A stretch of DNA of 64,000 bases from an uncultured Pseudomonadales bacterium (GTDB taxonomy: Bacteria > Pseudomonadota > Gammaproteobacteria > Pseudomonadales > Azotimanducaceae). This document shows, piece after piece, positions 7,695-55,502 of this stretch; within the stretch, counting starts at the first letter, position 1; each line of letters begins with the position of its first letter. The stretch covers positions 1,984,001-2,048,000 of the forward strand of contig OY282455.1 of the NCBI GenBank assembly GCA_958296195.1, in the 5' to 3' direction. Both the position numbers and the translations under genes were made by a program. A model generated the notes under the pieces. It was not told where the DNA came from. It saw only the letters and a list, made by a program, of their open reading frames with translations, and made no database searches.

Positions 7695-7787
7695 CCGTGC
7701 GCGAGATGGAGGCTCGCCCGACCAACCATGTCGCTGATGTTTTTGGTGTATCATCGTGTCCGGAAATCACCACGCAGAGCAAGGTGC

Positions 7788-8657
7788 ATGGGTTGGCATC
7801 CCATTAAGCAAACCCACTCCATAGACGCTGTTTATTGGCGTGTGCGTCTAGCCCAGCCACTTCTGCAACGGCATCAGGCTTGGATACAGCAAAAGGACAG
7901 CAGACTGCGCGCCATTCTGCCTCGGATGGGTGTGGCGCAACGGGTTGTCGAAATTGGTCCGGATGGGGTTGTTCAAGCGGGGGACCCGGCTGACGACCAA
8001 CGCGCTCCCGCTATGTTGCGTTACGAGCGGTATTTCCCTAATGGCGAACTAGACCTTCAGTTGGAGGTGAGTAGTGCCGACCTGACGGTCACTAGCCGCA
8101 GCTATTCCCAATGGCGCAAAACCAGCAAAGTGGTGCATGGTTTGTTCTCTGATGCGGGCACGGCTCTTCGTGAGGCCAACGACATCCCCATTGCCCAGTT
8201 GGAGCTGGAGTACAGGGATGTGTTCTGGTGGGATGGCGCTTGGCAGGACGGTGTCTTGGGCGAACTGCTGCAGCAGCATGATCGACTGTCCCCTAAGTGG
8301 GTGTTCGAGGCGGGGACTGTGTGGCATTCCGACCAAGGATGGGTAGAACCTTCAGGTGCTTTTGCACAAGAAACCGTGGTCGAACGCATGTTTCTGCAAG
8401 GATTGCATGGCACAGTCAATAATAGGCCAAGCCCACTGCTGGTGGCTCACACCACCTTAAGGCAAAATGCACAGAATGGACAGCCGCTGCCGTTAAGGAT
8501 ACAGGACGCATTCAGCAACGTGGCGTCGATTGACAATACCCAAGACACTGCGCAGAGCCGCTTTGAAGGTATGCACGATCGGGCAAATAACATGCTGCGG
8601 GCTGTGTTGCAGCCTGATGTGTGCAATCAAATAGGTATGACTCAAGGAGTGGCGTAA
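7788..8657 (+). CDS. Uncharacterised protein, possible TIGR04255-like, first gene of a three-gene operon
   Basis: A 289-residue soluble protein with no signal peptide or membrane segment. The ATG at 7788 is preceded by CAAGG; an upstream in-frame ATG at 7728 would give 309 residues. The C-terminus has a helix of the type MHDRANNMLRAVL shortly before the end. Together with the small acidic partner gene, this reminds me of the sporadically distributed TIGR04255 family, whose function is unknown; this assignment is from memory and weak. Its stop (TAA at 8655) overlaps the next gene's ATG by one base, so the two are probably translationally coupled. Codon use is less GC-biased than in purL, which fits acquisition. 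Confidence 0.6.
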   Translation: MGWHPIKQTHSIDAVYWRVRLAQPLLQRHQAWIQQKDSRLRAILPRMGVAQRVVEIGPDGVVQAGDPADDQRAPAMLRYERYFPNGELDLQLEVSSADLTVTSRSYSQWRKTSKVVHGLFSDAGTALREANDIPIAQLELEYRDVFWWDGAWQDGVLGELLQQHDRLSPKWVFEAGTVWHSDQGWVEPSGAFAQETVVERMFLQGLHGTVNNRPSPLLVAHTTLRQNAQNGQPLPLRIQDAFSNVASIDNTQDTAQSRFEGMHDRANNMLRAVLQPDVCNQIGMTQGVA

Positions 8658-9208
8658 TGAACATGACAGCACAGACGTCATTGGAGCCGCCGAACAAACT
8701 CGGCAAGCCTAGTTTGCAATTGGTCCCTCCCCTTGACCATGCAAATGAGGATGGCCTTGCCTTCTCGCCGTTGATGGAGGGGCAACCAAATCTTCTTCTG
8801 GCAGGCGTAGCAGTGTCCAAGCGGTCCCTGTTGGACGACCTGCGCTGGCTTGTCCTGCAAGGGGTTGCCCCTCGCCAAGATGAGTTGGAGCGGAATCCCA
8901 CTGCGGACAGCGTGGCTTTGGCGGAGAGGTTAGTTTTATCGCTCCCAGATGACATTGCAATGCCGAAAGTTTGCTTGCCGGACGATGGTGAAATCACTTT
9001 TTCTTGGAAGGCCGTTGACGGTGATGGGGTGCGCTGGCGTGCGTTGCTTGCCGTTGGGAGGGACTTGGATGTGGAGTGCTTTGTCAGGCGCAGCGCGGAT
9101 CACCTGCCACAAGTCCACTTTGCCGATGATTGCGGGGTAGATATGATTTGCCTGCCTGACGACATGGTAGCCGCCTTGCGAGCGCATTGGGGAAATGGTG
9201 ATACCTGA
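8657..9208 (+). CDS. Uncharacterised protein, second gene of the three-gene operon
   Basis: Encodes 183 residues. The start is clear: AAGGAG lies about 8 nt upstream of the ATG at 8657, which overlaps the previous stop by one base (TAATG). The central part (about residues 55-150) shows a regulator-like stretch ending in MPKVCLPDDGEITFSW followed by alternating hydrophobic strands, suggesting a small beta-rich fold. There are no catalytic motifs, membrane segments or signal peptide. The next gene starts inside its last codons. Function unknown; the tight coupling suggests that all three products act together. Confidence 0.6.
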   Translation: MNMTAQTSLEPPNKLGKPSLQLVPPLDHANEDGLAFSPLMEGQPNLLLAGVAVSKRSLLDDLRWLVLQGVAPRQDELERNPTADSVALAERLVLSLPDDIAMPKVCLPDDGEITFSWKAVDGDGVRWRALLAVGRDLDVECFVRRSADHLPQVHFADDCGVDMICLPDDMVAALRAHWGNGDT

Positions 9209-9683
9209 CACCAAGCCGTCAGTTGCACCTTTTAAACCTCAAGTTGACAGGGTTGCCGACCACGAGACGCTTCAACGCGGTGTGCATCCCGATGCGGTCG
9301 ATGACGAAGGCTACCCCAACAGCCAAGCCTTTCCTGTGGGGGACTTGAGGGAGCCTAGGCGCCAGGGCATATCCGTGCATCGGAAGAAGTTTCCCTTTAG
9401 TGAAAGAGATGAAGATCATCCCATGAATCGTTGGCCCAAGCATGTAGATGCCGAGGCTGGTGACGTGCGCAGCATTCGATCCGCCAATGGGCAGCAAGCA
9501 TTTGAGGTTGATGCCGATCCCTCGTTAGAGGACATGGGCCATGCCTTGGTGCGGTTCAAGGACCCTGCTCATCCGCCGGCGTCTCCTCGTCTCGAACGGG
9601 ACAAGATTCTTGATGTCTTTCGAGACCCGGACGTTGCGGAACAGCAGACATTGCGGGTGGATTCATCTGGGCAAGCGCCATAG
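9195..9683 (+). CDS. Uncharacterised protein, third gene of the three-gene operon
   Basis: Encodes 162 residues, polar and proline-rich. The ATG at 9195 lies 14 bp inside the end of the preceding gene, after GGGGAA. The pattern LQRGVHPD…EGYPNSQAF…V near the N-terminus and a later MGHALVRF resemble small unnamed proteins I remember being encoded beside other unknown genes; no function can be assigned. It is followed by an AT-rich stretch ending in a run of seven T (about 9714-9720), which may end the transcript, although no strong hairpin is visible before it. Confidence 0.5.
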   Translation: MVIPDTKPSVAPFKPQVDRVADHETLQRGVHPDAVDDEGYPNSQAFPVGDLREPRRQGISVHRKKFPFSERDEDHPMNRWPKHVDAEAGDVRSIRSANGQQAFEVDADPSLEDMGHALVRFKDPAHPPASPRLERDKILDVFRDPDVAEQQTLRVDSSGQAP

Positions 9684-9724
9684 CACTTCGCAAATCCCCC
9701 CAATTAATTTCCCTTTTTTTGTGC

Positions 9725-9753
9725 TTGACATGGGCGTAAGTCGTCCGCATAGT
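9725..9753 (+). promoter_or_regulatory. Candidate sigma-70 promoter for the leu leader/leuA
   Basis: TTGACA at 9725-9730 matches the -35 consensus exactly. After a 17-nt spacer comes CATAGT (9748-9753; 4 of 6 to TATAAT). A start about 7 nt further on falls at 9759-9761, next to the ATG of the leader ORF at 9762. Confidence 0.55.
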
Positions 9754-9761
9754 GCGCCGCC

Positions 9762-9827
9762 ATGAGCCAGTTATCTCCCCAACTTGCTGTTTTGGCGCAC
9801 CTACTGCGCGGCCTGCTGCCGGCTTAG
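9762..9827 (+). CDS. leuL: Leucine-rich leader peptide upstream of leuA (candidate attenuator ORF)
   Basis: A 21-codon ORF reading MSQLSPQLAVLAHLLRGLLPA with seven leucine codons, including two LL pairs, ending at TAG 9825-9827, 82 bp before the leuA ATG. This is the composition expected of a leucine attenuator peptide. The predicted promoter would start the transcript at or within three bases of the ATG, so the peptide may be read from a leaderless mRNA. A perfect 6-bp hairpin (GCCGGC-TTA-GCCGGC, 9818-9832) spans the stop codon, and a GGGC-GCAA-GCCC hairpin (9850-9861) follows. There is no U-tract, so termination would have to be Rho-dependent or the control translational. The symbol is by analogy. 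Confidence 0.5.
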   Translation: MSQLSPQLAVLAHLLRGLLPA

Positions 9828-9861
9828 CCGGCAAAAATCATCCCCCACAGGGCGCAAGCCC
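9818..9861 (+). promoter_or_regulatory. Two hairpins in the leuA leader
   Basis: A perfect 6-bp stem with TTA loop (9818-9832) overlaps the leader stop codon. A second 4-bp stem with a GCAA tetraloop lies at 9850-9861. A ribosome stalled on the LL pairs would cover the first stem, which is compatible with leucine-dependent control; no competing terminator with a T-run was found before leuA. Confidence 0.35.
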
Positions 9862-9909
9862 GCCCCGACTGAATCCCCCCAAACCCAACCGAGCAGGAGA
9901 GCTTTGGCC

Positions 9910-11634
9910 ATGAGCGAGCAAGTTGCGGCCATTGAACAGGAGGCGTCTTTCGAGCCGCGCCAAGCGCAGGGCCGCGCTGGCGGCAAGATGCCGTTCCATA
10001 AGTACCGTTCCTTTCAGCCCATTGATTTGCCCAGCCGTCGATGGCCCGGCCGTGTGCTGGACCGGGCGCCGCGCTGGTGCAGCGTCGATCTGCGGGACGG
10101 CAACCAAGCGCTGATTGACCCGATGAACGTGCAGGAGAAGCTGCGCATGTTCGACCTGCTGCTGGAGGTGGGCTTCGCCGAGATAGAAGTGGGCTTTCCG
10201 GCGGCGTCGCAGCCGGACTTTGACTTCATCCGCCGCATCATCGACGAAGGCCGCATTCCCGAAGGCGTGGCCGTGCAGGTGCTCTGCCAAGCTCGGGAGG
10301 AGCTGATCGAGCGCACGGTGCAGGCATTGGCAGGTGCCCCCAAGGTGATCTTCCATCTGTACAACTCCACCTCCGAGCTGCAGCGCCGGGTGGTCTTCGG
10401 GATGGGCCGGGAGGGCATCATCGATTTGGCCGTCAAGGGTACGCGCATGGTCAAGAGCGGCCTGGCGGCGCTGGATTCGGACATCACCTTCGAATACTCG
10501 CCGGAGAGCTTCACCGGCACGGAGCTGGACTTCGCGGTCGATATCTGCACGGCGGTGGCGGAGGAGTGGGGAGCTTCCGTGGAGCAGCCCATGATCGTCA
10601 ACCTGCCCTCGACCGTGGAGATGGCCACCCCCAACGTCTATGCCGATCAGATCGAGTGGTTCGCCACGCGCTTCCCACATCGGGACAAGGCGATCATCAG
10701 CCTGCACACCCACAATGACCGGGGCACCGGCATTGCCGCCACGGAGTTGGCTCTGATGGCCGGGGCGGAGCGGGTGGAGGGCACTTTGTTCGGCAATGGC
10801 GAGCGCACCGGCAACTGCGACATCGTCACCATGGCCATGAATCTGTTCAGCCAAGGCGTGGACCCGGAACTGGACTTCCGGGACATGCCGCGCATTCGCC
10901 GCACGGTGGAGGCCATCAACAAGCTGCCGGTGCATGAGCGCCACCCCTACGCCGGGGACTTGGTGTTCACCGCCTTCTCCGGCTCCCATCAGGACGCCAT
11001 CAAGAAGGGCATGGCCAAGGTGGACCGGGACTGCTGGGAGGTGCCCTATCTGCCGATAGACCCAAGCGACGTGGGCTCCTCCTACAAGGAGGCGGTGCGC
11101 GTCAACAGCCAGTCCGGCAAAGGCGGGGTGGGCTTTTTGCTGGAGGAGTTCTACGGCATCGTGCTGCCTCGGGAAATGCTGAAGGAATTCAGCGGTGTCG
11201 TTCAGAAGTTGACGGAGACTCTGGACCGAGAAGTGAAGGTCCAGGAAATACACCAAGCGCTTCTGGATGAATATGCGGTGGAAAGCGGCCCCTACCGACT
11301 GATCGATTTCGATGTGCTCACGGGCCACAAGGCAGAGCAGCGCTGCGTGGCCCGCATTGAGGCGTCCGAGCAGACCCTGACCATCGACGGTGAGGGCGGC
11401 GGCCCCATTGAGGCGTTCACCAATGGTTTGCAGGAAACGTTGAACGAGCCGGTGAACATCGCCGACTACCACGAGCACGCCCTGACCACCGGCAGCGACG
11501 CCCAGGCGATCTGCCTCCTGGCCATCGAAGACGCCAACGGCGGCAGGTGCTACGGCGTGGGCGTCAGCCAAAACACCATCATGGCTTCTTTCAAGGCGGT
11601 GATCGCAGCAATGAACCGCCGCTGGAGGCTGTGA
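9910..11634 (+). CDS. leuA: 2-isopropylmalate synthase (long LeuA2-type)
   Basis: Condenses acetyl-CoA with 2-ketoisovalerate, the first committed step to leucine. The 574 residues start at ATG 9910 after AGGAGA. The catalytic TIM barrel carries the family signature RDGNQAL near residue 60 and the metal-binding HTHNDRGTG; the C-terminal part (about 430-574) is the leucine-binding LeuA dimer/regulatory domain. The N-terminal segment before the barrel (FHKYRSFQPIDLPSRRWP) marks the longer LeuA2 subfamily common in actinobacteria and many proteobacteria. A frame extension to 9784 exists but overlaps the leader ORF and has no family match. Probably controlled by leucine feedback and by the upstream leader. 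Confidence 0.94.
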   Translation: MSEQVAAIEQEASFEPRQAQGRAGGKMPFHKYRSFQPIDLPSRRWPGRVLDRAPRWCSVDLRDGNQALIDPMNVQEKLRMFDLLLEVGFAEIEVGFPAASQPDFDFIRRIIDEGRIPEGVAVQVLCQAREELIERTVQALAGAPKVIFHLYNSTSELQRRVVFGMGREGIIDLAVKGTRMVKSGLAALDSDITFEYSPESFTGTELDFAVDICTAVAEEWGASVEQPMIVNLPSTVEMATPNVYADQIEWFATRFPHRDKAIISLHTHNDRGTGIAATELALMAGAERVEGTLFGNGERTGNCDIVTMAMNLFSQGVDPELDFRDMPRIRRTVEAINKLPVHERHPYAGDLVFTAFSGSHQDAIKKGMAKVDRDCWEVPYLPIDPSDVGSSYKEAVRVNSQSGKGGVGFLLEEFYGIVLPREMLKEFSGVVQKLTETLDREVKVQEIHQALLDEYAVESGPYRLIDFDVLTGHKAEQRCVARIEASEQTLTIDGEGGGPIEAFTNGLQETLNEPVNIADYHEHALTTGSDAQAICLLAIEDANGGRCYGVGVSQNTIMASFKAVIAAMNRRWRL

Positions 11635-11693: not shown

Positions 11694-12980
11694 TCAGTCG
11701 GCGTCCGCTAGTTGCGGCGGAGGGGCGGCGGCCTCCATGATCTTGAGGTGCTTGATGACGTTGTCCTTGATCTGCAGGGTTTCGATGAGGTAGCGATCGA
11801 TGCGCAGGCAGACATTAGTTTTCGGTATGGTCTCCAAAGCCTCGACCACCAAGCCGTTTAAGGTCTTGGGGCCGTCCGTGGGCAGGCGCCAGCCGAGTGT
11901 GCGGTTGATGTCCCGCAGCAGGGCGGCGCCGTCGATGAGGTAGGCGCCGGCGCCGGCGGACACTATTTCCGGCAAGTTGCCTGCGTAGTCCGTGGTGAAC
12001 TCGCCGACGATCTCCTCCAGGATGTCCTCCAGCGTCACCAATCCCTGCACGTCGCCATATTCGTCAACCACCAGCGCCGAGCGCCGTTTCCGCCGTTGAA
12101 AGTTGACCAGTTGAATGTTCAGCGGCGTCGCTTCGGGCACATAGTAGGGTTCCCGCACTAGCTCCGCCAAGTCTTGGTGGGTCAGGTCGCCTTGCTCCAC
12201 ATGCCGGGCGAGGCGCCGCAAGTGCAGTATGCCGACCGCATTGTTGACGTGGCTTCGGTACACTGGCAGGCGGGTGTGCTGGCTGCTTGCTAGAACTTGC
12301 AGAATGTCCTCCATCTTGTCGCTTAGGTCGATGCCGATGATTTCGTTCCGCGGCACCATGATGTCGTTGACCGTGACGTTCTCCAGATCGAGGATGCTGA
12401 TCAGCATGTCCTTGTGCCGCCTGGTAATCTGTGCGGATTCCCGAACCACGGTGCGCAGTTCACCCGCGCTTAGGCGGTCGTCCGCAGCGGCCGGCACGCC
12501 AATGAACGGCCGGACAACCGCGTTGCTAGCCGCATTGATCAGCCACACCAAGGGACGGGTTAGTCTCAGCAGCGGGGTCAGGACATGGGCCGAGGCGAAG
12601 GCCAGTGGCTCTGGTTTTCTGGCGGCGACTGTCTTGGGCGCCACCTCCGCGAAGACTAGGAAAAACAGCGTCAGCAAGATGGGCGCCAGCACCACCCCAG
12701 CGTCCCCGAACAGGTGCAAGCCGATCACCCCGCCGATGCTGGCGGCGAAGAAGTTGACGAAGTTGTTGCCGATCAGGATGACGCCGAGCAACTGGTCCGG
12801 CCGCTGCAACAGCTTCAGCGCCTTGTCCGCACCGGAATGCTTTTGGCCGGCCAAGTGCCGTAGCCGATAGCGGTTCAACGCCATCATCGCCGTCTCCGAG
12901 GAGGCGAAGTAGGCTGACACCAGCGTCAACCCCAAAATAACCAGCAACAATGTGGAGACGGAAAAATCCGCTAGGGACAT
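11694..12980 (-). CDS. corB: CorB/YfjD-type membrane protein, DUF21-CBS-CorC_HlyC
   Basis: Encodes 428 residues. An N-terminal DUF21 region with about four membrane helices (to about residue 160; SETAMMALN near the start) is followed by paired CBS domains (TVNDIMVPRNEIIGI… to about 330) and a C-terminal CorC_HlyC domain. The family is linked to magnesium/cobalt efflux or resistance in the inner membrane. The ATG at 12980 overlaps the stop of ypjD (TGATG) with AAAGGAG just upstream, so the two are translationally coupled; a TTG at 12983 is an unlikely alternative. The ypjD-corB pair divergent from ffh is a standard gammaproteobacterial arrangement. Confidence 0.92.
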   Translation of the reverse strand: MSLADFSVSTLLLVILGLTLVSAYFASSETAMMALNRYRLRHLAGQKHSGADKALKLLQRPDQLLGVILIGNNFVNFFAASIGGVIGLHLFGDAGVVLAPILLTLFFLVFAEVAPKTVAARKPEPLAFASAHVLTPLLRLTRPLVWLINAASNAVVRPFIGVPAAADDRLSAGELRTVVRESAQITRRHKDMLISILDLENVTVNDIMVPRNEIIGIDLSDKMEDILQVLASSQHTRLPVYRSHVNNAVGILHLRRLARHVEQGDLTHQDLAELVREPYYVPEATPLNIQLVNFQRRKRRSALVVDEYGDVQGLVTLEDILEEIVGEFTTDYAGNLPEIVSAGAGAYLIDGAALLRDINRTLGWRLPTDGPKTLNGLVVEALETIPKTNVCLRIDRYLIETLQIKDNVIKHLKIMEAAAPPPQLADAD

Positions 12981-13807
12981 CAACTCCTTTCCAGCAGTAT
13001 CTCAAGCACGAACTTGCTGCCCAGATAGCCGAGCAGGAGCAGAACGAAGGCCGCTAGGATCCAGCGCATCGCCGAAACGCCGCGCCAGCCAAACCAAAGA
13101 CGCCCAGCAAGCAGGAGCGCATACGCCAGCCAAGAGGCCGATGACAACACCGTATGATGAACCACATGCTGGGCGAACATGTCGTCCAGATACAGGAATC
13201 CGCTGCCGATGGCTGCTGTCAGCGTGATGAAGCCGGTCCAGACCATGACGAACAGCAGCCGCTCCATGGTTTCCAGCGGCGGCAGAATGCGCAGCAGAGC
13301 CAGATGGGTAGGGACCCTTATGCTGCGTTCAACAATGCCGACAAAAATGGATTGCAGCGCCGCCATCATCAAAATGCTGTAAGCCAGGATGGAGGTGAGT
13401 ATGTGGGTGGCCAACCCGGCGTCCGAGGCGTCGATTGGCGCCGCCCGCCCCGGCGCAAAGAGAGACGCCAGCAGCGCCGCCGCCGAGATGGGAAACAGAA
13501 CCACCAGCAGGCTGCGCACCGGCTGCAGGACGCTCATGAACATGACCAGCACAACCATCACCAAAGCGGTTAGGCTGGCGACGGAAAGGAGCCCCAAGCC
13601 AAAGCCCCCCGGCACGTTGACCTGCGCGTAAACGGCAAAGCCGTGCAGCGCCATGGCCGGTGCCGCCAGCGCCGCAAGAAGGCGCACGGACATCTTGCCG
13701 GCGTTGTGGGCCAAGGCCCGCCCATGCAACAGGGCGCCGGCCAAATAAAGCGCCGCGGCGATCACCCCCGGAATGATCGGGTTGGCAGCAGCGGCAGGCA
13801 GCGGCAT
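12980..13807 (-). CDS. ypjD: YpjD/CorE-type inner membrane protein of the cytochrome c assembly (CcsA/HemX) family
   Basis: Encodes 275 residues with about eight hydrophobic segments spread over the whole length. Tryptophan and histidine residues are placed as in the CcmC/CcsA/HemX superfamily (for example the HHTVLSSASW segment near residue 215). E. coli YpjD is of similar size (263). No cytochrome-maturation genes lie nearby; the family's role beside corB is poorly defined. The stop overlaps the corB start. In related genomes its 5' neighbour is ffh; here a 7-kb block of accessory genes lies between. Confidence 0.88.
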   Translation of the reverse strand: MPLPAAAANPIIPGVIAAALYLAGALLHGRALAHNAGKMSVRLLAALAAPAMALHGFAVYAQVNVPGGFGLGLLSVASLTALVMVVLVMFMSVLQPVRSLLVVLFPISAAALLASLFAPGRAAPIDASDAGLATHILTSILAYSILMMAALQSIFVGIVERSIRVPTHLALLRILPPLETMERLLFVMVWTGFITLTAAIGSGFLYLDDMFAQHVVHHTVLSSASWLAYALLLAGRLWFGWRGVSAMRWILAAFVLLLLGYLGSKFVLEILLERS

Positions 13808-13881
13808 GGCTTGTATGTCCTAGTTACAGCTTGCGGATGGGCGCCTAAGTGTGTCACAGGCCGCACGGCGGCGCTATCTCC

Positions 13882-15027
13882 TCAACCCGCTAGGCAGCCC
13901 TTTTGCCGGAGCCGGCGGTCATTTCCAATGACTGGATTGGTGGCTACGAGCTGCAGCGTTGCGCCTGGTAGTCCATCTGCATCGGTGCGCCTTCTTGCCA
14001 TTCGGGTGTGGCGGGCGTCGTTGTCTATGCCAAGCCATTGGCGGCCGAGTTTCTTGGCGACGGCGGTGGTGGTGCCGGTGCCGACGAAGGGGTCGAGCAC
14101 CACGCCGCCCGGTGGGGAGAACAGGCGGATCATCCGGGCGGCCAGTTCTTCGGGGAATTCGGCTTCGTGGCGGTCGTTGCGGCGGACTGAGCGGATGCTC
14201 CAGACGCCGCGGAAACCCCAGCTTGCCCATTCGTCGGCGGTTAGGCGATTCCGGTCATAGTCGGTGATGCCGGGACGCCAGAAGACGTAGATATGCTCGA
14301 ACTCATCGACGGCGCGGTAGGAGTTGGAGTGCCAACGGCTGTTGGCCCAACAGGGGTCCTTGTGCCAGATGCGCTGATCATAGAGGTGGAAGCCCGCTTC
14401 CTCCGCCCACTCCGCCACCATGCATCCGGTCAGCACAACTTTGGTGGAGGCGGCCTGCTTGCCGCCGCGCACGTTGTTGTCCTCTAGGCGGCGCTGAATG
14501 GTCTGCTCGCTGCAGCTCAGCAACTCGGCGAGTTCCTGCCGCTTGGCGTTGGGGTGCTGCTTCTTGACCGCAAGTATCTGCGCCCTAGTGACGGGCACCT
14601 TCTTGCGGCGCATGTTGTTGGCTTGGAAGCGTGGCATGGACGGGTCCGGGAAGCAGAGGATGTCCCCAATGTTGACGGCCAGGAACCCGCCCGGCTTGAT
14701 GATGCGGGTGTGGCAGTGGATGACCTCCCGCAGCAAGCTGCACCAGCCGTCAAAGGACAGGTGGCGCTCATAGGACTTGCCCATGTAGTAGGGCGGCGAC
14801 CAAAAGCTCAGGTCAATGCAGGCCTCCGGCAGTTTCGCCAAGTGACGGCGGGCGTCGCCGGTGAGGATGCGGGCGAAAGTAGTTTCCTCGCCCTTCCCCC
14901 CCGAGGGCCTTGTGATGGTGGCCGCTTCGCCTCTCTCCCCGTTCAGGCCAGCCGCTTGGACAACATCCAGCCCAAGCTGCACGTCACCCGCCGAGTCCTC
15001 TTGAACGCCTTTGCGCATGGCCCGCAT
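13882..15027 (-). CDS. Beta-class DNA methyltransferase (N4-cytosine or N6-adenine) with internal HTH
   Basis: Encodes 381 residues. Catalytic motif IV, SPPYY (about residues 77-81), precedes AdoMet motif I, DPFVGTGTTT (about 312-321), the order of beta-class amino-methyltransferases; SPPY is more common in N4-cytosine enzymes. Between them lies a helix-turn-helix-like segment (about 145-190: QELAELLSCSEQTIQRRL), possibly the target-recognition part. No endonuclease gene adjoins it directly, so it is either solitary or the modification partner of the large NTPase-nuclease transcribed upstream in the same direction. ATG at 15027, with another in-frame ATG at 15018. Part of the block inserted between ypjD and ffh. 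Confidence 0.85.
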   Translation of the reverse strand: MRAMRKGVQEDSAGDVQLGLDVVQAAGLNGERGEAATITRPSGGKGEETTFARILTGDARRHLAKLPEACIDLSFWSPPYYMGKSYERHLSFDGWCSLLREVIHCHTRIIKPGGFLAVNIGDILCFPDPSMPRFQANNMRRKKVPVTRAQILAVKKQHPNAKRQELAELLSCSEQTIQRRLEDNNVRGGKQAASTKVVLTGCMVAEWAEEAGFHLYDQRIWHKDPCWANSRWHSNSYRAVDEFEHIYVFWRPGITDYDRNRLTADEWASWGFRGVWSIRSVRRNDRHEAEFPEELAARMIRLFSPPGGVVLDPFVGTGTTTAVAKKLGRQWLGIDNDARHTRMARRRTDADGLPGATLQLVATNPVIGNDRRLRQKGCLAG

Positions 15028-15504
15028 TGCCTAACCCCTAGATGCGCTAGCCCATTAAACGCGGCTTATCCGCAGCGGCAGCAAAGATACTGTAAGGAAA
15101 TACAGATTTCAATCCTTTTTCCTCGTCGTCACTAGTGGAGCCTAGAGTGGCGGCGTTGGGCTCATGGCTTGCGCGGTCGGCATGATGGCTGTGGCTGGCA
15201 GATTGTAGCCTAGTATGGCGCAAGCTGGGCGCGACAGGCCAGCCCTTCATCCTCGGATAAGTCTTGGCGTTGACGGCCTTGGTGGTGCCCCGCCGCAGCT
15301 CCGTCCGGCCCCTAGCCTATTTTTGGGCGAAAGTTGACATGCCCCCAGCAGGCGGCCTGATTGCCAATTCACCGAGCAATAAGGCGCACACGCAAGTCGA
15401 TATGCCGCAGTACCTTGCCGAGATGGAGGTTCCTGCCGGCAATAGGCTGGCGATCAGCGGATTGGTGAAGTGCAATTTTCTCCGGAGGCACATCAGGGCA
15501 TTGG
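15028..15504. other. Intergenic stretch without a recognised gene
   Basis: 477 bp between the methyltransferase start and the end of the large NTPase gene. An open frame on the plus strand (TTG at 15264 running over the NTPase 3' end) has no recognisable product and is probably chance. The methyltransferase promoter must lie near 15028-15200, where the sequence is locally AT-richer (about 15090-15125). No tRNA or convincing repeat was seen. Confidence 0.5.
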
Positions 15505-18500
15505 TTAAGCTGCGGGCTTGGATACGTCTATCACTACCACCGATATCTTTCGGGCCTCGGCATTCGACAGGGTGTCGTATAGGCTCTTCTCGAGCTCCTT
15601 GGCGGTGTTTGGGCGCCTTCCTTCAGAGGGTGTGGCCTTGGTCCACTCCAGGCCGAACCAGAACACTAGGTAGATGCCGTGGCCATCCCTTGCGTATCTG
15701 GCGACTAGTTGGCCGTGAATTGCGGTCCATAAATCCCTGTGGGAGTTTTTCTTGACTTCTACCGGCACATTCAGCCCTTGAAAGCAGACTTTTATGTCCG
15801 CCCTGCCGTCATTGGCGTACTGCCCTTCTGGTTGGGCATTGACGCCCAGTGGAAGCCTTTCCTGCAAATCGGACAATAGCGCATCTCTGCACAGTTCCTC
15901 GTGCTTGGGTTCTTGCGGGTGCTTTATCGAATCGGTATTCCAGTATTGACGCCAACCGGAAGTCTCGCCGTGGCGGATCTGCTTAGCCAATTCAGCCAGA
16001 TGGTCCGTCACCAGCGCCGCTAAGTCAGCGGAATTCGCTGGGCGACTGCTGTCGAGTGTGCCCAGAACCTGCGTAGGGCTGGCGTAGCTGAAACAGGCTT
16101 CCCGACGAACTTTGCACTGCTGTTGCCTGGCGTGACGGATGCGGGGATGCCAAGGATGAAGCGCCGGGCGCTCCGCTAGCCGCTCTAGTATTTCTGTCGC
16201 CGGTGCAGTTGGTTCAGCAGCTATCTGCCCAATCAGGTTATGTACGAGCGGTCTTCCGGCATCTTCTGCTTCTGATATAAATCTCGGTTTTCCGTTGGCC
16301 GAGTCCGAACCATAGGGTCTATATAAGCCGCCGATAGTCTGAACTAGAAGTTCTTTAGCCGGCAGATCCAGATTTGCAATCCATGGGTTGAGTTCATTGG
16401 TGAGAAACGCCGCCAAGTGCGCGACTTGCTGCTGCCCGCCCCTTCCAGTCAGTGCCTTGGCTAGTGGCTCAAGGGTAGATTGAGGCTGCCTGAGAATCCT
16501 AGATGCTAGCCAGTACAGCCTTTGCGAGGTGTTGAGGCTTTTGAGAGCGATCTTTTTTTCCACTACTGCAAGAAACGCACCTTTTTCACAATGCTTTAGA
16601 GCAGCGACAAGGATCTGTTTGAGCATGTTCAACTGCCGCACTGTGCAACGATTGGGGAATGCCCTCATTAGCTGCGGAGTGGCAATGCAAGCCACTTCCG
16701 AATAGCCTGGGTCGTGCGCTAACTGATATAGGTCCATACGGTGTTCGCCGCCTTTGCGTATGGTGGCTCGAAAGACCTGAACCATAGATTCAGCAACCAC
16801 ATCCGGTTGGTAGGCCAGAATTAGCTCGTGCCCTAGCCACTTGTCGTTAGGGGGCAATATCTCACTGAAGTGCAGAGCAAGAGCCCGGCGCATGCCATCT
16901 TCATCCAAGGGAGGTTGGCCAGCACTGAGCTCGCCGGCAAGCTCCTGCAAGCCCGCGGCAAAGGGCAAGGCAAGATCATGTTGTTGATTCTGGGCCGAGA
17001 GGTGAAGAATCTCCGGCGCTTGAGGGAGGTCGCCGCGTTTTGTCGATTCTCGGAAAGCATTGAGGACTAAATCGACCAACCGTTCATCGCCGCCGAGCAG
17101 GCTGAGTAGCCGCTCTCGTCGGGTGTTTCCGTCGATGTCCAGGAAAAACCCAAAGTACGCCCCCGCCAATTGGTGCAATAACTTTGGCGGGGCCGAATTT
17201 CTCCGAAAGTCGGGTTCAAGAGATTTGATTGCCTCCCGCCAATTTTCGATATTCCTTTGTCGTTCTTCCGCATCCTTTTGTTGTTTTTCCAAATGCGCTT
17301 TTTGCCGCTGTTCTGGTCTATCAATAAGTTGTCGTTGGTGGTTCCTTATTGCTTTGTAATGATTTAGGATGACAGGTCGCCGCGCTATGCGCTTTTCAAG
17401 ACCTTCTTGAGAAAGGCCCTCGCAGCGGTTTTGACGGTCCAAGCAGTGAACTGCTTCCTCCAGAAACTTGCAGGCGAGGCCTTCGTCTTCGGCATTAAGA
17501 GCCTGCTCAAGGCACCAAAAGCCGAAATCCGGCGGTGCAGGAGCATGAAATAGATAACCTTCCGTTATCCACGGGAGCATAGAACTTTCAGTGCCCATTG
17601 CGAAAATGGCTTTATACTGGCTGGGATGGGTGCCAAACCAGTTTCTGACTTCCTGCACTTCCTCGCCACTGCCCTGGTTTCCACCAATATTGAACGATGC
17701 GCGAAGCCAACAAAATAGGCGTTGTTTATCTAGTTCATCAGTGCTGTCCAAATTTTTCAGATAAGTTGCAAGCAACAACGCCGGCAAATTTCTCATCTTG
17801 CTTGGCAGTGAGGTGACTCTACTTATCCAAGATTGGCTATTGCAAAAGCTGACGAAGGAATCAAGCGCCTCCGCTATGAGTTTCTGGCCCGCTGTCCTTT
17901 TCCTGAAAGTTTCGATCCAAAAGAATAGATAGCTGCCCAGAAAATTCATATTTTTTGGTACTCGGAAGTAGCGGCCAATATCGGACGGAAGCAGGTCATT
18001 TGGGTACAGGTGTTTGAGCAGATACCCAAGCAGTTGATCGTTAGGGTCAGATACAGCCCCGGAATGCACGGCTTCGAGTAGGTCTTGCAGTGCGTGCTTG
18101 GCTTGATTGTGTCTCCCAACTTGCTTGATGTAGGCTTGGAGCGCAAACTCTCTGATCCACAACCATCTCGCTTGGTCTCTAACCACTTTCATCAGAATCG
18201 GCCTGAGGCCGGGAATGGCTTGGCCGTGTTGCAGGGCGGTTAGGATTGCAATCACAACAGATTGCCGTGCGTCGTTCGTGGGTTCGTTCGTTAACAGCTC
18301 CTCAAACGACTCGCTCATGTCCGGAGTGGCCAACTCTCCCCAGCGAGTTTCCAGTTCTTGGTTGTTGGCGATGCTCCAAGGGTCGAGGTCCGCCTCCCGC
18401 TCAAGACTTGCCAGGATTTTGCGTTTTTCGTTGGCTGAAAACTGCTTGACGTCGCCATACATAGTCACCCCTTGGGGATCACGCTCGATGAGTTCGTTGC

Positions 18501-19608
18501 GCCCCATCGTGCTGTGGGTGGCGAGCCAAGCGGACAAACCGCGCAGCTCGGACACTACGCCGCCGTCCTCACCCGTGATCAGGGCCAAAATCCTGGACAC
18601 CGGCAAGCCGTTGTCGATCAAGCCTGCCAGATACTTACCGGCTAGAAACTCTGCGATGTGGCGGTGTATTGGCGCAGCAAGGCCATTTTCCACGTTGAAC
18701 AGCTTGGTGTGGATGGTTCGGTTTAGGATTTTTTGGCTTAGGTTGGGAATTTCTGACAACGAAAGGGAATTCGCATCGGCTTGGTCAGCTATCGCTCTGC
18801 ATCCGGTGTGGCCGCTAAGCAGGATCAGGGCGCAAATGCGGCTCGCCGCACCGAGTAGATCAGCATCGCTGTGCTGCGGTGGTAACGCCAAGTGATGTTC
18901 ACGATTGTGTTCCCGCAGCAGCTTCACGCATGCCCGCTCGAAGGTTTGCAAGCGCGTTTCCGGCCAGCTTCCGTCGGCGACCGCTTTCGCAAGCATCTCG
19001 AGGGTTTGCGGATTTTCAAGCAGCCGATCGATGCCTCTGTGCTGGGCGGTGGAAATGAAACCTTCAACGTCTTCGACGTCTTGGCAATTTTTGAGGATCT
19101 CCCGGATGCCTTCGTTGGGCAAGGGGTCGAGGCGCAGGACAAGAACCTCCCCATTGCTTGACACCGATTTTAGATGCGCCCGGTCGGTTGCGCCGAACCA
19201 ATCCGCTTCGCGGCAGGAGAGGCGGAAACTAGGATGCCCCAGCCTATCCAGTTTTGCGCGAATCCGATCAAATGGTGTTCGCTGGTCTGGGGCGCCCGCT
19301 CGCATTTCATCCAGGCCGTCGATGAACAGTGTGGTTTCGTGCCATTCAGGCCGGTCGTCAAAGGTAACGAAATTCCGCGCCGTGACGTAGCAGCCTGCTT
19401 GCGCCTCCGCTTGGCGCTCAAACGCTTCGGTTTGGGCCTCCGCCTCGCGCCTGAACATTTCGGTTTTGCCGGTGCCGGGCGCACCAAGCAGGACAATCGC
19501 CGGACTATCCCCAAACTCCTTCAGGGGTTTTGGCTGCGGGCGCTCGGCAGGATTGTCCCGGTGGTCTTGGGCAACCTCGGTGCAAGTGCGGTGAACGTAA
19601 ACGTTCAT
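15505..19608 (-). CDS. Large NACHT/STAND-like NTPase with C-terminal PD-(D/E)XK nuclease domain
   Basis: Encodes 1367 residues, soluble. The N-terminus goes straight into an NTPase: Walker A GAPGTGKT at 42-49, Walker B LFIDGLDE at 94-101 (the double-acidic pattern typical of NACHT), and a sensor-like FRLSCREADW near 128-137. A very long helical middle follows, with a highly charged coiled-coil stretch about halfway (KAHLEKQQKDAEERQRNIEN). The C-terminal ~100 residues carry a PD-(D/E)XK pattern: Asp1271, Glu1284-Val-Lys1286, and QLVARYA from 1300. The ATG overlaps the stop of the DUF4143 ATPase gene by 4 bp (ATGA). NACHT proteins with nuclease effectors often act in anti-phage defence, but the effector is usually N-terminal; here it is C-terminal. 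Defence is inferred, not shown. Confidence 0.8.
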   Translation of the reverse strand: MNVYVHRTCTEVAQDHRDNPAERPQPKPLKEFGDSPAIVLLGAPGTGKTEMFRREAEAQTEAFERQAEAQAGCYVTARNFVTFDDRPEWHETTLFIDGLDEMRAGAPDQRTPFDRIRAKLDRLGHPSFRLSCREADWFGATDRAHLKSVSSNGEVLVLRLDPLPNEGIREILKNCQDVEDVEGFISTAQHRGIDRLLENPQTLEMLAKAVADGSWPETRLQTFERACVKLLREHNREHHLALPPQHSDADLLGAASRICALILLSGHTGCRAIADQADANSLSLSEIPNLSQKILNRTIHTKLFNVENGLAAPIHRHIAEFLAGKYLAGLIDNGLPVSRILALITGEDGGVVSELRGLSAWLATHSTMGRNELIERDPQGVTMYGDVKQFSANEKRKILASLEREADLDPWSIANNQELETRWGELATPDMSESFEELLTNEPTNDARQSVVIAILTALQHGQAIPGLRPILMKVVRDQARWLWIREFALQAYIKQVGRHNQAKHALQDLLEAVHSGAVSDPNDQLLGYLLKHLYPNDLLPSDIGRYFRVPKNMNFLGSYLFFWIETFRKRTAGQKLIAEALDSFVSFCNSQSWISRVTSLPSKMRNLPALLLATYLKNLDSTDELDKQRLFCWLRASFNIGGNQGSGEEVQEVRNWFGTHPSQYKAIFAMGTESSMLPWITEGYLFHAPAPPDFGFWCLEQALNAEDEGLACKFLEEAVHCLDRQNRCEGLSQEGLEKRIARRPVILNHYKAIRNHQRQLIDRPEQRQKAHLEKQQKDAEERQRNIENWREAIKSLEPDFRRNSAPPKLLHQLAGAYFGFFLDIDGNTRRERLLSLLGGDERLVDLVLNAFRESTKRGDLPQAPEILHLSAQNQQHDLALPFAAGLQELAGELSAGQPPLDEDGMRRALALHFSEILPPNDKWLGHELILAYQPDVVAESMVQVFRATIRKGGEHRMDLYQLAHDPGYSEVACIATPQLMRAFPNRCTVRQLNMLKQILVAALKHCEKGAFLAVVEKKIALKSLNTSQRLYWLASRILRQPQSTLEPLAKALTGRGGQQQVAHLAAFLTNELNPWIANLDLPAKELLVQTIGGLYRPYGSDSANGKPRFISEAEDAGRPLVHNLIGQIAAEPTAPATEILERLAERPALHPWHPRIRHARQQQCKVRREACFSYASPTQVLGTLDSSRPANSADLAALVTDHLAELAKQIRHGETSGWRQYWNTDSIKHPQEPKHEELCRDALLSDLQERLPLGVNAQPEGQYANDGRADIKVCFQGLNVPVEVKKNSHRDLWTAIHGQLVARYARDGHGIYLVFWFGLEWTKATPSEGRRPNTAKELEKSLYDTLSNAEARKISVVVIDVSKPAA

Positions 19609-20885
19609 GGCGTTTCAAACCAGTGTGAAGCAGGGTGGGAGAGCAATTCACCGAGGGCCAGCCCGTCTGGACCGACAAGAATGGATTTCATAGGTTTGAA
19701 ATGGTTGGTGAATCTTTCCAGCCCTCTGGGTTGCGACCGTAGCCGGCCGCTTTTCACCTCAAAAGCCGCCAGCCGCCGGCCGCTTTCCAAAACGAAATCC
19801 ACCTCATTGCTCTTGTATCGCCAGTAGTAGAGACTCATTTCCGGCGTCTTGGTGTTGAATAAATGCGCGCCTACGGCGCTCTCCACCAACCGCCCCCAGA
19901 AGGTTCGGTCCGCCCGTGCCTCCGCGAAGCTGTATCCGGAGTAGGCCGACATTAGGGCAGTGTTGAGCACATTGAGTTTGGGGCTGGATGCCCGGCGGCG
20001 ACGCCTCAGTCCCTCGTACTTCAGCAGCCCGGCCACCAGCCCGGCTTGCTCAAGCAGGGTCAAGTAGCGGGCCAAGGTGGTGGTGTTGCCGGCGTCGGCA
20101 AGCTGGCCGAGCATCTTGTTGTACGCTAGGATTTCGCTGGAGAACTCCGCGCTCAAGTCAAACAGCCTTTTCAGCAGCGCCGGTTTGTCCACCCGCTCCA
20201 GCGCCAGTATGTCCCGCTCGATGTTCGGCTCCACTAGCGTCTCAGTAATGTAGCCCCGCCAGCGGGTCTGCTCCGACGCCAAGGGCGCGGCACCCGGATA
20301 GCCGCCAAAGTAAAGGTATTGGTTAAGGTCGAAGCCGAATGCCTCCGCCATTTCGTCGTAGGACCAGTGGGTGAGGCGGACGCTCTCGAAGCGGCCGGCC
20401 AAACTCTCTTTCATGCCACGCTGCATCAGCAAGGGCGCAGACCCCAACAGGACCACATGCAGGGAGCAATTTTCCCATCGGTCCGTGTCCCACAGCCCCT
20501 TGACGAGCTCAGACCAGTTGGGAATCTTCTGAATCTCATCGAACACCAAAACAAAACCCTGCTCCGATTGCGCGGCTTCCAAGCGGGCCAGCTCCCAAGC
20601 GCTCACCAACCAGCGACCATCTCTCTCCTCGGCATCCAAGGCGGACCACGTTTCCTTCCGGTCTGAACCAGTCCATGGTTCCGGCGCAGAGGGAATCGCC
20701 CTAGGTTCAGGCTTGTCCACCGCTAGGTAGCGGTAGCGCTTTGTCTGGCCAATTTGGTTTAGCGTCTGCCTAATCAGCGTGGTTTTGCCGCACTGGCGGG
20801 GGCCGTTGATGAAGACCAACCACCGAGGGGATTCGTTCAGCCGCTTGAGAACGGCGGATATCTGTTTGCGCTGGAAGACGGCCAT
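19605..20885 (-). CDS. AAA-type ATPase with C-terminal DUF4143 domain
   Basis: Encodes 426 residues. Walker A GPRQCGKTT at 28-36, Walker B FVLVFDE at 111-117, a sensor region HVVLLGSA near 150, then a winged-helix-like middle and a DUF4143 domain with a nuclease-like pattern (Asp363, Glu376-Val-Lys378). This family is widespread and abundant in some symbionts and archaea, with no agreed function. It is the first gene of a two-gene unit: its TGA overlaps the ATG of the large NTPase. A 34-bp imperfect palindrome sits 10-43 bp upstream of its ATG. Confidence 0.88.
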   Translation of the reverse strand: MAVFQRKQISAVLKRLNESPRWLVFINGPRQCGKTTLIRQTLNQIGQTKRYRYLAVDKPEPRAIPSAPEPWTGSDRKETWSALDAEERDGRWLVSAWELARLEAAQSEQGFVLVFDEIQKIPNWSELVKGLWDTDRWENCSLHVVLLGSAPLLMQRGMKESLAGRFESVRLTHWSYDEMAEAFGFDLNQYLYFGGYPGAAPLASEQTRWRGYITETLVEPNIERDILALERVDKPALLKRLFDLSAEFSSEILAYNKMLGQLADAGNTTTLARYLTLLEQAGLVAGLLKYEGLRRRRRASSPKLNVLNTALMSAYSGYSFAEARADRTFWGRLVESAVGAHLFNTKTPEMSLYYWRYKSNEVDFVLESGRRLAAFEVKSGRLRSQPRGLERFTNHFKPMKSILVGPDGLALGELLSHPASHWFETP

Positions 20886-20894
20886 AAGGCGAGA

Positions 20895-20928
20895 TTACAT
20901 CATTGAGAAACTTTACTCAATAGTGTAA
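20895..20928. promoter_or_regulatory. Imperfect palindrome upstream of the DUF4143 ATPase gene (candidate operator)
   Basis: Thirteen-base arms (TTACATCATTGAG and CTCAATAGTGTAA) with two mismatches around an 8-base centre, in an AT-rich patch unlike its surroundings. It lies 10-43 bp upstream of the ATG and overlaps possible minus-strand promoter elements (TTGAGT, 17 nt, TAATCT). It could be an operator of the two-gene unit. Confidence 0.45.
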
Positions 20929-21057
20929 TTCCTGCTTTCCAAGGCTGTTTCAGGCTGTGTTCGGCCGGCGAATCCGGACCCTGCTTCCCAGCGGGCGCTA
21001 CTTAAACGCCGCTGTCGCACCTGTCAGCCTCCTGTCTGCTGAACACAGCGCTTACTC

Positions 21058-21063
21058 TATAAT
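21058..21063 (+). promoter_or_regulatory. Candidate -10 element of the ffh promoter
   Basis: An exact TATAAT 30 bp before the ffh ATG. No good -35 hexamer is visible at 16-18 nt spacing, so this is only a -10 candidate. Confidence 0.4.
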
Positions 21064-21092
21064 GCCCCCAAATCCACCGCCCAGCGACCATC

Positions 21093-22457
21093 ATGTTTGA
21101 GAAGCTGTCTGACCGCCTGAGCGACGCCTTTAGGGGCTTGGCTGGCAAGGCCCGCCTTACGGAGGGCAATGTTGGCGACGCCATGCGGGAGGTGCGCGGT
21201 GCCTTGCTCGATGCGGACGTGGCCTTGCCGGTGGTGCGCTCCTTTACGGAGAGCGTGCGGCGGCGGGCCATCGGGCAAGCGGTCTCGGCGGCGCTTGATC
21301 CTAGGCAAGCCTTCATCAAGATCGTGCATGAAGAGCTTGTGGAGGTGATGGGCCAAGCCAATGACGCCCTGAACCTGGCCACCGCGCCTCCGGCCATCGT
21401 TCTGATGGCTGGGCTGCAGGGGTCTGGCAAGACCACCACGGCGGCCAAGCTCGCGCTCTTCGTTAAGCAGCGCCTGAAAAGGCGGGTCGCGTTGGTCAGC
21501 GCGGACGTTTACCGGCCGGCGGCCATCGAGCAATTGGAGGTTCTGGCCGGGGAGGTCGGTGCGCAGTTCATCAGTTCGAGCGCGGATGAGGCGCCGGCCG
21601 CCATCGCCGAGCGGGCGGTGGCGGAGGCCAAGCGCAAGCTGGCCGATGTGCTGATCGTCGATACCGCCGGGCGCTTGGCCATTGACGAGGCCATGATGCA
21701 GGAAATCCAGACCCTGCAGCAGCGCTTGCAGCCCATCGAGACCCTGTTCGTGGTTGACGCCATGACCGGCCAGGACGCGGCGGCCACCGCCAAAGCGTTC
21801 AACGAGGTCTTGGACCTCACTGGCGTCGTGCTCACCAAGGCGGACGGGGACGCTCGGGGCGGGGCGGCCCTTTCGGTTCGCTCCCTGACCGGCAAGCCCA
21901 TCAAGTTCATCGGCATGGGCGAGAAGACCGATGCCTTGGAGCCCTTCCATCCGGACCGGCTGGCGTCGCGCATTCTGGGCATGGGGGACATGCTCTCCCT
22001 CATCGAGGAGGCGGAGCGCAAGGTTGACAAGCGCAAGGCGGAGAGGCTGGTCAAAAAGGTCAGCCGCGGGCGCAAGTTCGACCTTGCGGACTATCGCGAC
22101 CAACTGCAAAGCATGGCCAGCATGGGCGGCCTCGGCAACATGCTCGACAAGATGCCGGGCATGGGCCAATTGCCGCCCGCCGCCCGCTCCCGCTTGGATG
22201 ACGGCCAGTTCCGGCAAGCAGCGGTCGTCATAGATTCCATGACGCCTCACGAACGGCGTTTCCCCGACCTCATCAACCCGTCCCGCAAGCGGCGCATTGC
22301 TCGCGGCAGCGGCACCGACGTTACCGACGTCAATCGAGTGCTCAAGCAGCACAAGCAGATGCAGAAGATGATGAAGAAATTCGGCGGCAAGAATATGATG
22401 CGCGGCCTGCAGGGGCTTGCCGGCGGCGCCGGCCGCCGTCCAAGCTTCAGGCGCTGA
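21093..22457 (+). CDS. ffh: Signal recognition particle GTPase Ffh/SRP54
   Basis: Binds 4.5S RNA and signal sequences and, with FtsY, targets nascent membrane proteins to the translocon. 454 residues (E. coli 453). An N-terminal four-helix bundle, then the G domain with P-loop GLQGSGKTTTAAKLA near residue 110, DTAGR, and TKADGDARGG, then the methionine-rich M domain (MASMGGLGNMLDKMPGMGQ and a C-terminal QKMMKKFGGKNMM stretch). It is followed by rpsP-rimM-trmD-rplS, a common order. The 4.5S RNA gene is not in the window. Confidence 0.97.
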   Translation: MFEKLSDRLSDAFRGLAGKARLTEGNVGDAMREVRGALLDADVALPVVRSFTESVRRRAIGQAVSAALDPRQAFIKIVHEELVEVMGQANDALNLATAPPAIVLMAGLQGSGKTTTAAKLALFVKQRLKRRVALVSADVYRPAAIEQLEVLAGEVGAQFISSSADEAPAAIAERAVAEAKRKLADVLIVDTAGRLAIDEAMMQEIQTLQQRLQPIETLFVVDAMTGQDAAATAKAFNEVLDLTGVVLTKADGDARGGAALSVRSLTGKPIKFIGMGEKTDALEPFHPDRLASRILGMGDMLSLIEEAERKVDKRKAERLVKKVSRGRKFDLADYRDQLQSMASMGGLGNMLDKMPGMGQLPPAARSRLDDGQFRQAAVVIDSMTPHERRFPDLINPSRKRRIARGSGTDVTDVNRVLKQHKQMQKMMKKFGGKNMMRGLQGLAGGAGRRPSFRR

Positions 22458-54915: not shown

Positions 54916-54916
54916 G

Positions 54917-55132
54917 TTATCTTTCTTCCAAGACAAGCCCTATTGGGTTGGCCCACGAGTACTTTGGGTAGCTGACCTGAGAGGTTTCCGAATAGGACGC
55001 GAAGTCGGCAAGTTTCATATATTCTTCATATTGTTGGGTGGTGTTCTGAACAAGCCCCATAATTTCAGCCTCTGTGGGCCGCACTTGCTGGCCTGAACTA
55101 GCTGCCTCAGCAGAGCTTTTTCCGCTAGCCAT
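54917..55132 (-). CDS. Uncharacterised 71-residue protein upstream of the protease
   Basis: Starts MASGKSSAEAASSGQQVRPTE and ends SWANPIGLVLEER. No signal peptide or membrane segment. AAGAAG precedes the ATG at 55132. Its stop is one base before the protease ATG, so the two are probably coupled. A longer frame (to 55267) overlaps the lipoprotein gene and is unlikely. Confidence 0.5.
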   Translation of the reverse strand: MASGKSSAEAASSGQQVRPTEAEIMGLVQNTTQQYEEYMKLADFASYSETSQVSYPKYSWANPIGLVLEER

Positions 55133-55178
55133 GATGTTGCTTCTTGCCGGAGAATTGGTGCTGACAGGGTCGCCAACC

Positions 55179-55499: not shown

Positions 55500-55502
55500 G
55501 AC

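Follow-up and report, generated by a model that had tools for sequence, protein, structure and literature searches.

The current analysis concerns a two-gene locus of an uncultured Pseudomonadales bacterium (Azotimanducaceae), located within a 64,000-nucleotide stretch of contig OY282455.1 (assembly GCA_958296195.1, positions 1,984,001 to 2,048,000 of the forward strand), hereafter referred to as the window. Positions 15505-19608 are filled on the minus strand by a single open frame of 1367 codons, and frame 1 of the plus strand contains many stops over the same interval; an initial annotation made from the sequence alone had placed a gene exactly here, with no strand given. The encoded protein appears to be a NACHT-type member of the wider EruA family, and its start codon overlaps the stop codon of an upstream gene encoding an AAA_14-DUF4143 ATPase. 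The EruA family has already been named, and it is this tight coupling to a DUF4143 gene that constitutes the less described part of the locus. The principal features are as follows.

15505 to 19608, minus strand: EruA-family NACHT-nuclease gene P0001, 1367 aa (open frame; NCBIfam NF058535, E 2e-258, 861 bits, cut-off 1000)
19462 to 19485, minus strand: Walker A motif GAPGTGKT, residues 42-49 (G45, G47 and K48 identical in 31/31 aligned rows)
19306 to 19320, minus strand: Walker B motif DGLDE, residues 97-101 (D97, D100 and E101 identical in 31/31 rows)
16066 to 17262, minus strand: part of a predicted alpha-helical solenoid, approximately residues 783-1181, homologous to stand-alone proteins (hhalign probability 100, E 5e-40, 387 columns; helical in the model)
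15508 to 15936, minus strand: candidate C-terminal PD-(D/E)XK-type nuclease domain, residues 1225-1367 (topology; LmuA and Cas4 profile matches)
15694 to 15798, minus strand: putative catalytic pattern D1271...E1284-V-K1286...Q1300-L-xxx-Y1305, with E1261 just before it (31/31 and 42/42 rows)
19605 to 20885, minus strand: AAA_14-DUF4143 ATPase P0002, 426 aa, PADLOC candidate PDC-S01 (Pfam AAA_14 3.5e-23, DUF4143 6e-28; PDLC04791 9.7e-157)
19605 to 19608, minus strand: 4-base overlap of the partner stop and the EruA start (start codon at the same offset in 15/17 pairs)

The Walker A (G42-APGTGK-T49) and Walker B (D97-G-L-D-E101) motifs recognized in the initial annotation are both in place and invariant. 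In an alignment of the query with 30 relatives, K48, D97, D100, E101, R133 and W137 are identical in all 31 rows, as are E1237, E1261, D1271, E1284, K1286, Q1300, L1301 and Y1305 of the nuclease region; in a separate 22-row alignment, identity to the query is as low as 18%. A 42-row set, in which two rows were joined from split genes, retains the nuclease residues in 42/42 rows and the Walker residues wherever a letter exists (39 to 41 of 42). H315, part of an 'HR.xAEYLA' element, is likewise identical in 42/42 rows and presumably resembles the winged-helix histidine of nucleotide-binding leucine-rich repeat receptors (NLRs). Because these residues are invariant across the 31- and 42-row sets, the Walker and C-terminal motifs are not attributable to chance and the pattern is, as judged from the alignments, under strong constraint.

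AlphaFold2 models of residues 1-690 (mean predicted local distance difference test score 80.5) and 691-1367 (80.8), built from input alignments of 9 and 10 rows, predict a NACHT-like alpha/beta start, mostly helices up to approximately residue 1222, and an alpha/beta domain from approximately residue 1237, so the estimate of about 1100 helical residues made at the outset was right in kind. When the N-terminal model was compared with known structures using Foldseek, NLRC4, NAIP-NLRC4 or NLRP3 occupied 15 of the top 18 rows and NAIP5 one more, with a best E-value of 4e-08 and NLRC4, NLRP3 and NAIP on top. Likewise, 15 of the 17 PDB chains with E-values up to 0.001 were NLRC4, NAIP-NLRC4 or NLRP3, the other two being 9sfp_D (oocyte cytoplasmic lattice) and 8xqw_E (Ycf2-FtsHi). 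The template modeling scores are modest (0.19-0.39 by query length), as is expected because the matched region is only part of a long protein. The Pfam NACHT family was matched by 10 of 22 EruA rows (E up to 0.5, best 8.7e-07); the query itself had no Pfam NACHT match and nothing above the Pfam cut-off. The Walker A motif, the acidic Walker B motif and the predicted NACHT-type fold indicate an NTPase of the NACHT/NLR-like kind, i.e. a signal transduction ATPase with numerous domains (STAND), in line with the NACHT-like NTPase first proposed.

The C-terminal domain of the model follows the order helix-strand-strand-strand-helix-strand, corresponding to a PD-(D/E)XK core with D...ExK. E1237 is part of the first helix and D1271 immediately precedes the second strand; the third strand carries E1284-V-K1286, and the helix after it Q1300-Y1305. 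The D...E-V-K...QLxxxY pattern given in the initial annotation had D1271, E1284-V-K1286 and Q1300 correctly assigned, although its final element ends at residue 1305, not 1300. When the nuclease domains were searched alone, 13 of the 29 gave a PADLOC LmuA match with an E-value no higher than 0.01 (best 1.6e-05; query 4.7e-04, spanning only 56 residues) and one of the 29 a Cas4 match (2e-04). The predicted layout, the invariant motif and these weak LmuA/Cas4 matches point to a PD-(D/E)XK-type domain, in agreement with the nuclease-like C-terminus suggested at first. LmuA, the Lamassu effector, works with a structural maintenance of chromosomes (SMC)-like partner; none was found among the described neighbors, to which the search was confined.

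With regard to family membership, NCBIfam model NF058535 ('NACHT domain-containing antiphage protein EruA') covers residues 28-1363 of the query (model positions 17-1318 of 1318) and is matched by all 22 rows of alignment A1, of which 21 also match HyoA (E up to 1e-5). An undescribed family, as the gene had originally been presented, is ruled out by a model that spans nearly the whole protein. In both the query and the aligned EruA rows, the domain order is NACHT, solenoid, and candidate C-terminal effector, and, as claimed, no N-terminal effector precedes the P-loop, ahead of which lie only 41 residues. The usual order among bacterial NACHT proteins, according to a 2025 paper (PMC12169576), is an N-terminal effector, a central NACHT and a C-terminal sensor, which makes the order of the query unusual, as the initial annotation had stated. 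Since the EruA model covers residues 28-1363 and is matched by all 22 rows, the "reversed" order is nonetheless the EruA family's own, and it is also kept in L064 and L065, the two genomes above the EruA cut-off; unlike the query clade, these two have no DUF4143 gene directly upstream. HyoA (NF058534) finds its best match in residues 147-801 (158 bits), but this match is in two pieces and far under the cut-off of 1200. The bNACHT25/32 proteins, as described in PMC12169576, similarly combine a NACHT ATPase with a PD-(D/E)XK DNase effector, but their nuclease is N-terminal, whereas that of the query is C-terminal with nothing recognizable ahead of the ATPase. DS-8, a NACHT-containing system that also has a metallophosphatase, was validated in the DefensePredictor study (PMC13092281), the text of which names neither Eru nor Hyo. 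In the literature searched, which mostly excludes subscription journals and preprints, we found no paper on antiphage EruA or HyoA, no reference EruA locus and no paper on EruA-DUF4143 pairing, which does not establish absence from print. Avs (AVAST) proteins carry an N-terminal effector and a C-terminal sensor; the query lacks the former, and assignment to Avs was rejected by domain order, with a PADLOC scan of the gene yielding only mad8 (E 0.044).

A distinguishing feature of this branch of the EruA family is its upstream partner, which the initial annotation had missed, together with the existing family, even though its reading of the NTPase, the C-terminal domain and their order stood. 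Neighborhoods were compared for all 5 other relative genomes, 14 of 18 other class genomes, 18 of 24 other phylum genomes, all 8 new family genomes, five of the 34 plasmid records, and ten viral loci. Immediately upstream of EruA and on its strand, a DUF4143 gene is present in 17 rows of the tree (the window, L058, L059, L061, L062, L063, L067, L078, L079, L169-L175, and L121 from a viral contig). All 17 fall within one 21-row clade (Shimodaira-Hasegawa-like approximate likelihood ratio test support 100) of the midpoint-rooted 44-row tree, which was built before L121 was labeled as paired; of the other four members, L060 and L066 end at a contig edge, while L080 and L119 have no partner. Excluded from this tree were six broken or very divergent sequences (L068, L069, L070, L072, L089, L090), the fragments L177 and L179, the fusions L176 and L178, and viral L122, L124, L126, L127 and L128. 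No DUF4143 gene was detected, at the limits used, near those six sequences or those five viral loci. L179, in which both partner and EruA are in pieces, is not counted among the 17, nor is an eighteenth case, L037, whose contig holds only an EruA fragment. Pairing requires at least three state changes on the tree, e.g. one gain and two losses, when L121 counts as paired and both L060 and L066 are coded as unknown; a count of four was obtained with all three scored as unpaired. The EruA start codon sits at the exact 4-base overlap in 15 of the 17 pairs, with L173 and L121 deviating and several paired rows also having alternative possible starts. Across these pairs, EruA can be as little as 28% identical to that of the window.

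Two further arrangements were encountered. In L175 (7060-10640, minus strand), EruA is encoded as two open frames, one for residues 1-582 and one for 782-1366, that share four bases and have a DUF4143 gene upstream, representing either a split version or decay. In L081 (1736-7236, minus strand), the start of the EruA relative overlaps an HsdS-like gene (Pfam Methylase_S) by four bases, which implies that EruA has been captured by other operons too.

The partners themselves are a coherent group. Paired partners and two fusion proteins form one clade (100/99) separate from seven solo DUF4143 proteins, with L100 missing from this tree due to an incomplete frame. G28, G33, K34, D116, E117, E335, D363, E376 and K378 are invariant in 17/17 partners, a pattern indicative of an ATPase with its own putative PD-(D/E)XK-like set (E...D...ExK) in the C-terminal DUF4143 domain. 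An hhalign comparison of this C-terminal part with the EruA nuclease domain is weak (probability 13, P 0.002, 28 columns), with the D-ExK motifs superposed. Pairwise distances of EruA and partner are strongly correlated (Mantel r 0.883, 0/20000 permutations as high), also when the near-copy L058 is omitted (r 0.844, 0/20000). Because shared descent of neighboring genes contributes to such a correlation, it is indicative of stable co-inheritance and not of contact. The partner is not exclusive to EruA, a possibility we discarded: among 14 genomes with a DUF4143 match (E up to 1e-30), the pair occurs in two (the window's and G216), and the remaining 12 have no EruA within approximately 1.5 kb, three of them on truncated loci (L106, L107, L109).

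The two genes are also joined by fusion. In L176 (genome G832, 7838-10465, minus strand), a DUF4143 frame continues in-frame into EruA residues 766-1191, and in L178 (genome G864, 6165-8711, plus strand) into residues 777-1176. Both genomes belong to genus g7 of the window's family and both fusions are without the NACHT and nuclease. In the partner tree, the closest sequence to the partner portion of L178 is that of the intact L059, which means that the fusions do not group there as sisters. Between the two fusions, the ratio of nonsynonymous to synonymous substitution rates (dN/dS) is approximately 0.12 for DUF4143, 0.21 and 0.34 for the solenoid halves, 0.54 for the linker and 0.66 for the tail; the fusions are therefore either functional and partly relaxed or recent deletion remnants. 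Within the solenoid, the portion from residue 783 to 1181 of EruA is homologous to stand-alone proteins of 377-435 aa in the five aligned (L071, L073, L075, L076, L077; the L073 row of alignment A5 is without its C-terminal part). Such proteins occur in 7 of 369 class genomes, three further rows being EruA itself. No match was present in the viral contigs scanned, and the three proteins scanned against Pfam (L071, L073, L075) belong to no family there. One of them, L075, lies near metH. These relationships suggest that the EruA solenoid may derive from a cellular protein.

The genomic setting of the pair is defined by two additional features.

13808 to 21092, no strand: interval of 7285 bases between a ypjD-like gene (12980-13807, minus strand) and ffh (21093-22457, plus strand), containing the insertion
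13882 to 15027, minus strand: N6/N4 DNA methyltransferase with a short helix-turn-helix-like stretch (Pfam 3.6e-40), in the same insertion

The insertion comprises the pair and the methyltransferase. The corresponding spacing is 7853 bases in the sister genome, and in five genomes of the same genus it is approximately 100 (G002), 100 (G008) and 140 (G003), 492 (G004) and 588 (G007) bases, G005 and G006 falling outside this comparison. The GC content of the insert is 0.57 versus approximately 0.60-0.67 across most of the window. The pair sits on an acquired island at a housekeeping site. The methyltransferase has a counterpart in the sister L058 (95% identity over 350 aa) and no restriction gene was recognized beside it. 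As it adjoins the pair only in the window and L058 among the neighborhoods compared, we rejected it as a third subunit, and it is probably a passenger and not part of the system. Along the EruA gene, synonymous divergence between the window and L058 is 0.20-0.28 over residues 1-760, 0.07 over 760-1190 and 0.13 in the nuclease, a drop that looks like intragenic recombination. Elsewhere in the window, a C-5 cytosine DNA methylase (41269-42267, minus strand) lies in a lower-GC stretch at 39-42 kb, perhaps another restriction or defense spot, and a low-GC segment (approximately 0.49; 53999-55895, minus strand) contains small frames, one of which matches part of an SDH/ClpP-like serine protease domain.

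The EruA family is patchy in its distribution. With the window's genome included in each count, EruA occurs in 6 of 58 relative genomes, 25 of 398 phylum genomes and 14 of 200 family genomes, and the EruA model finds 19 of 369 class genomes, six of these rows matching the solenoid only. E. coli yielded no match when searched with the over-cut-off EruA genes of L064 and L065, and phages gave matches in one of 50,697 records. Some relatives lie near defense genes, as the initial annotation had proposed looking for: a type I restriction enzyme (L078), a DpdE-like helicase (L174), HsdS-like (L081) and YhcG nuclease (L082) genes and, on plasmids, SIR2 (L144) and TrlF (L145). We consider it reasonably probable that the locus is a horizontally acquired two-gene NLR-like system, probably anti-phage, and a variant of EruA. 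A defense role is suggested by the NCBIfam and PADLOC names as well as by context. The gene product would be a large bacterial protein related to the NLR receptors of animal immunity, and it probably cleaves nucleic acid when a phage infects the cell.

Two other explanations can be weighed here. It is very improbable that the protein is a STAND regulator of ordinary cell functions with a non-catalytic or RNA-directed C-terminal domain. STAND proteins such as MalT do regulate transcription (PMC10427625), and the solenoid relative near metH occupies ordinary surroundings; such a role nevertheless fits poorly with the patchy occurrence (6/58, 25/398), the insertion at a site that is nearly empty in other members of the genus, the invariant catalytic set, and the lack of a DNA-binding output domain among the Pfam matches. 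Also improbable, albeit somewhat less so, is the reading of the pair as a module for selfish maintenance or plasmid conflict (addiction or anti-plasmid), with the DUF4143 ATPase holding the EruA nuclease in check and the cell dying once that check is lost. Antitoxins are often translated first and overlapping, as is the partner here, and mobile elements do carry EruA: relatives (not the pair) are found in 34 of 72,556 plasmid records, none covered to 80% in one place, and at 10 loci on IMG/VR contigs, one of which (L121) is a pair with a DUF4143 gene. However, full-length partnerless EruA relatives are common, so restraint by a partner is no general need, the NCBIfam name is antiphage, and the partner combines an ATPase with a nuclease-like domain of its own.

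Returning to the anti-phage system, the sequences and models show its architecture, the conservation of the catalytic residues, the stable pairing and co-divergence of the two genes, and the fusion of the partner to the solenoid. Beyond these, we infer a mechanism comprising physical contact between the two proteins, a nucleotide switch, oligomerization, a nucleic acid substrate, an infection trigger and a defense outcome. The partner would be translated just before EruA through the 4-base overlap. ADP-bound EruA may then be kept inactive together with, or by, the DUF4143 ATPase contacting the long alpha-helical solenoid, which would serve as a sensor or interaction surface. An infection signal, sensed by the solenoid and/or the DUF4143 ATPase, would lead to exchange of ADP for ATP and oligomerization of the NACHT module. 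Oligomerization would join the C-terminal PD-(D/E)XK nuclease domains, the presumed effectors, resulting in cleavage of phage and/or host nucleic acid.

Several observations weigh against a two-gene anti-phage system. Firstly, the query scores 861 bits against EruA, short of the 1000 bits set for an equivalog, and for this reason the query is a member of the wider EruA family and not an equivalog. Secondly, other searches did not recover the nuclease assignment: 1) Pfam returned nothing convincing for the 29 nuclease domains, PDDEXK_4 being matched once (1/29) at 0.09 and unrelated families scoring lower E-values (e.g. Tcp11, 0.0036); 2) PDB profile searches gave nothing convincing, and no profile identified the nuclease domain significantly; and 3) Foldseek and VIA-align of residues 691-1367 returned only HEAT/importin-type helical-repeat and other unrelated large proteins, a comparison dominated by the helical part that barely probed the nuclease domain. 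Thirdly, among ten large neighbors compared with PADLOC, strong matches to specific defense families were limited to two, a 'subtilase' model being matched by a third, and because of this low number genomic context alone is modest support for defense. Fourthly, EruA is not seen intact in 4 of the 17 pairs (L061 and L067 are cut by contig ends, L062 and L175 are split), and the fusions could be deletion remnants, having lost NACHT and nuclease and having solenoid dN/dS values of 0.21-0.34 versus 0.12 for DUF4143. Lastly, no partner lies upstream of any of the 23 EruA rows outside the clade, even at E 0.1, although only 304 bases of upstream sequence are available for L086 and 770 for L082, and L080 and L119 inside it also lack one at E 0.1, so EruA can persist without its partner.

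This last point is what would be expected if EruA acted alone and the DUF4143 ATPase were an independent defense gene, PDC-S01, caught once in the operon and then co-inherited. Solo DUF4143 genes exist, plain linkage also predicts co-divergence, and PDC-S01 was scored as a single-gene candidate in PMC12988326. Still, we regard this scenario as unlikely: the overlap is kept in 15/17 pairs over a range in which EruA identity to the window drops to 28%, and two fusions join both genes, whereas independent genes seldom keep such an overlap and fusion.

Within the preferred two-gene system, a more specific and as yet doubtful version can be envisaged, namely an inverted NLR with a C-terminal nuclease effector and a dedicated DUF4143 ATPase that docks on the solenoid and thereby sets activation. 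The homology of the solenoid to a stand-alone bacterial protein raises the possibility that this region is an integrated copy of a cellular target, serving as a decoy or guard surface. If so, PDC-S01/DUF4143 would be an NTP-dependent sensor or licensing subunit, tied to an NLR in this clade, rather than a stand-alone defense gene. The partner matches PDLC04791 of PDC-S01, which is described as a single-gene candidate in PMC12988326, where it ranks as the fourth most common defense system across prokaryotes and candidates of its class are unvalidated; here, it forms a two-gene unit together with an NLR-like protein. In the literature searched, DUF4143 is named in one paper, and PDC-S01 is mentioned alongside anti-phage in two. 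The stable pairing suggests that, at least in this clade, PDC-S01 is not a single-gene worker. A compact operon tying a DUF4143 ATPase to an NLR-like protein with an assayable candidate nuclease would offer a direct handle on PDC-S01 function, and the pair would provide an example of an NLR-like ATPase with a C-terminal effector, contrary to what is usual.

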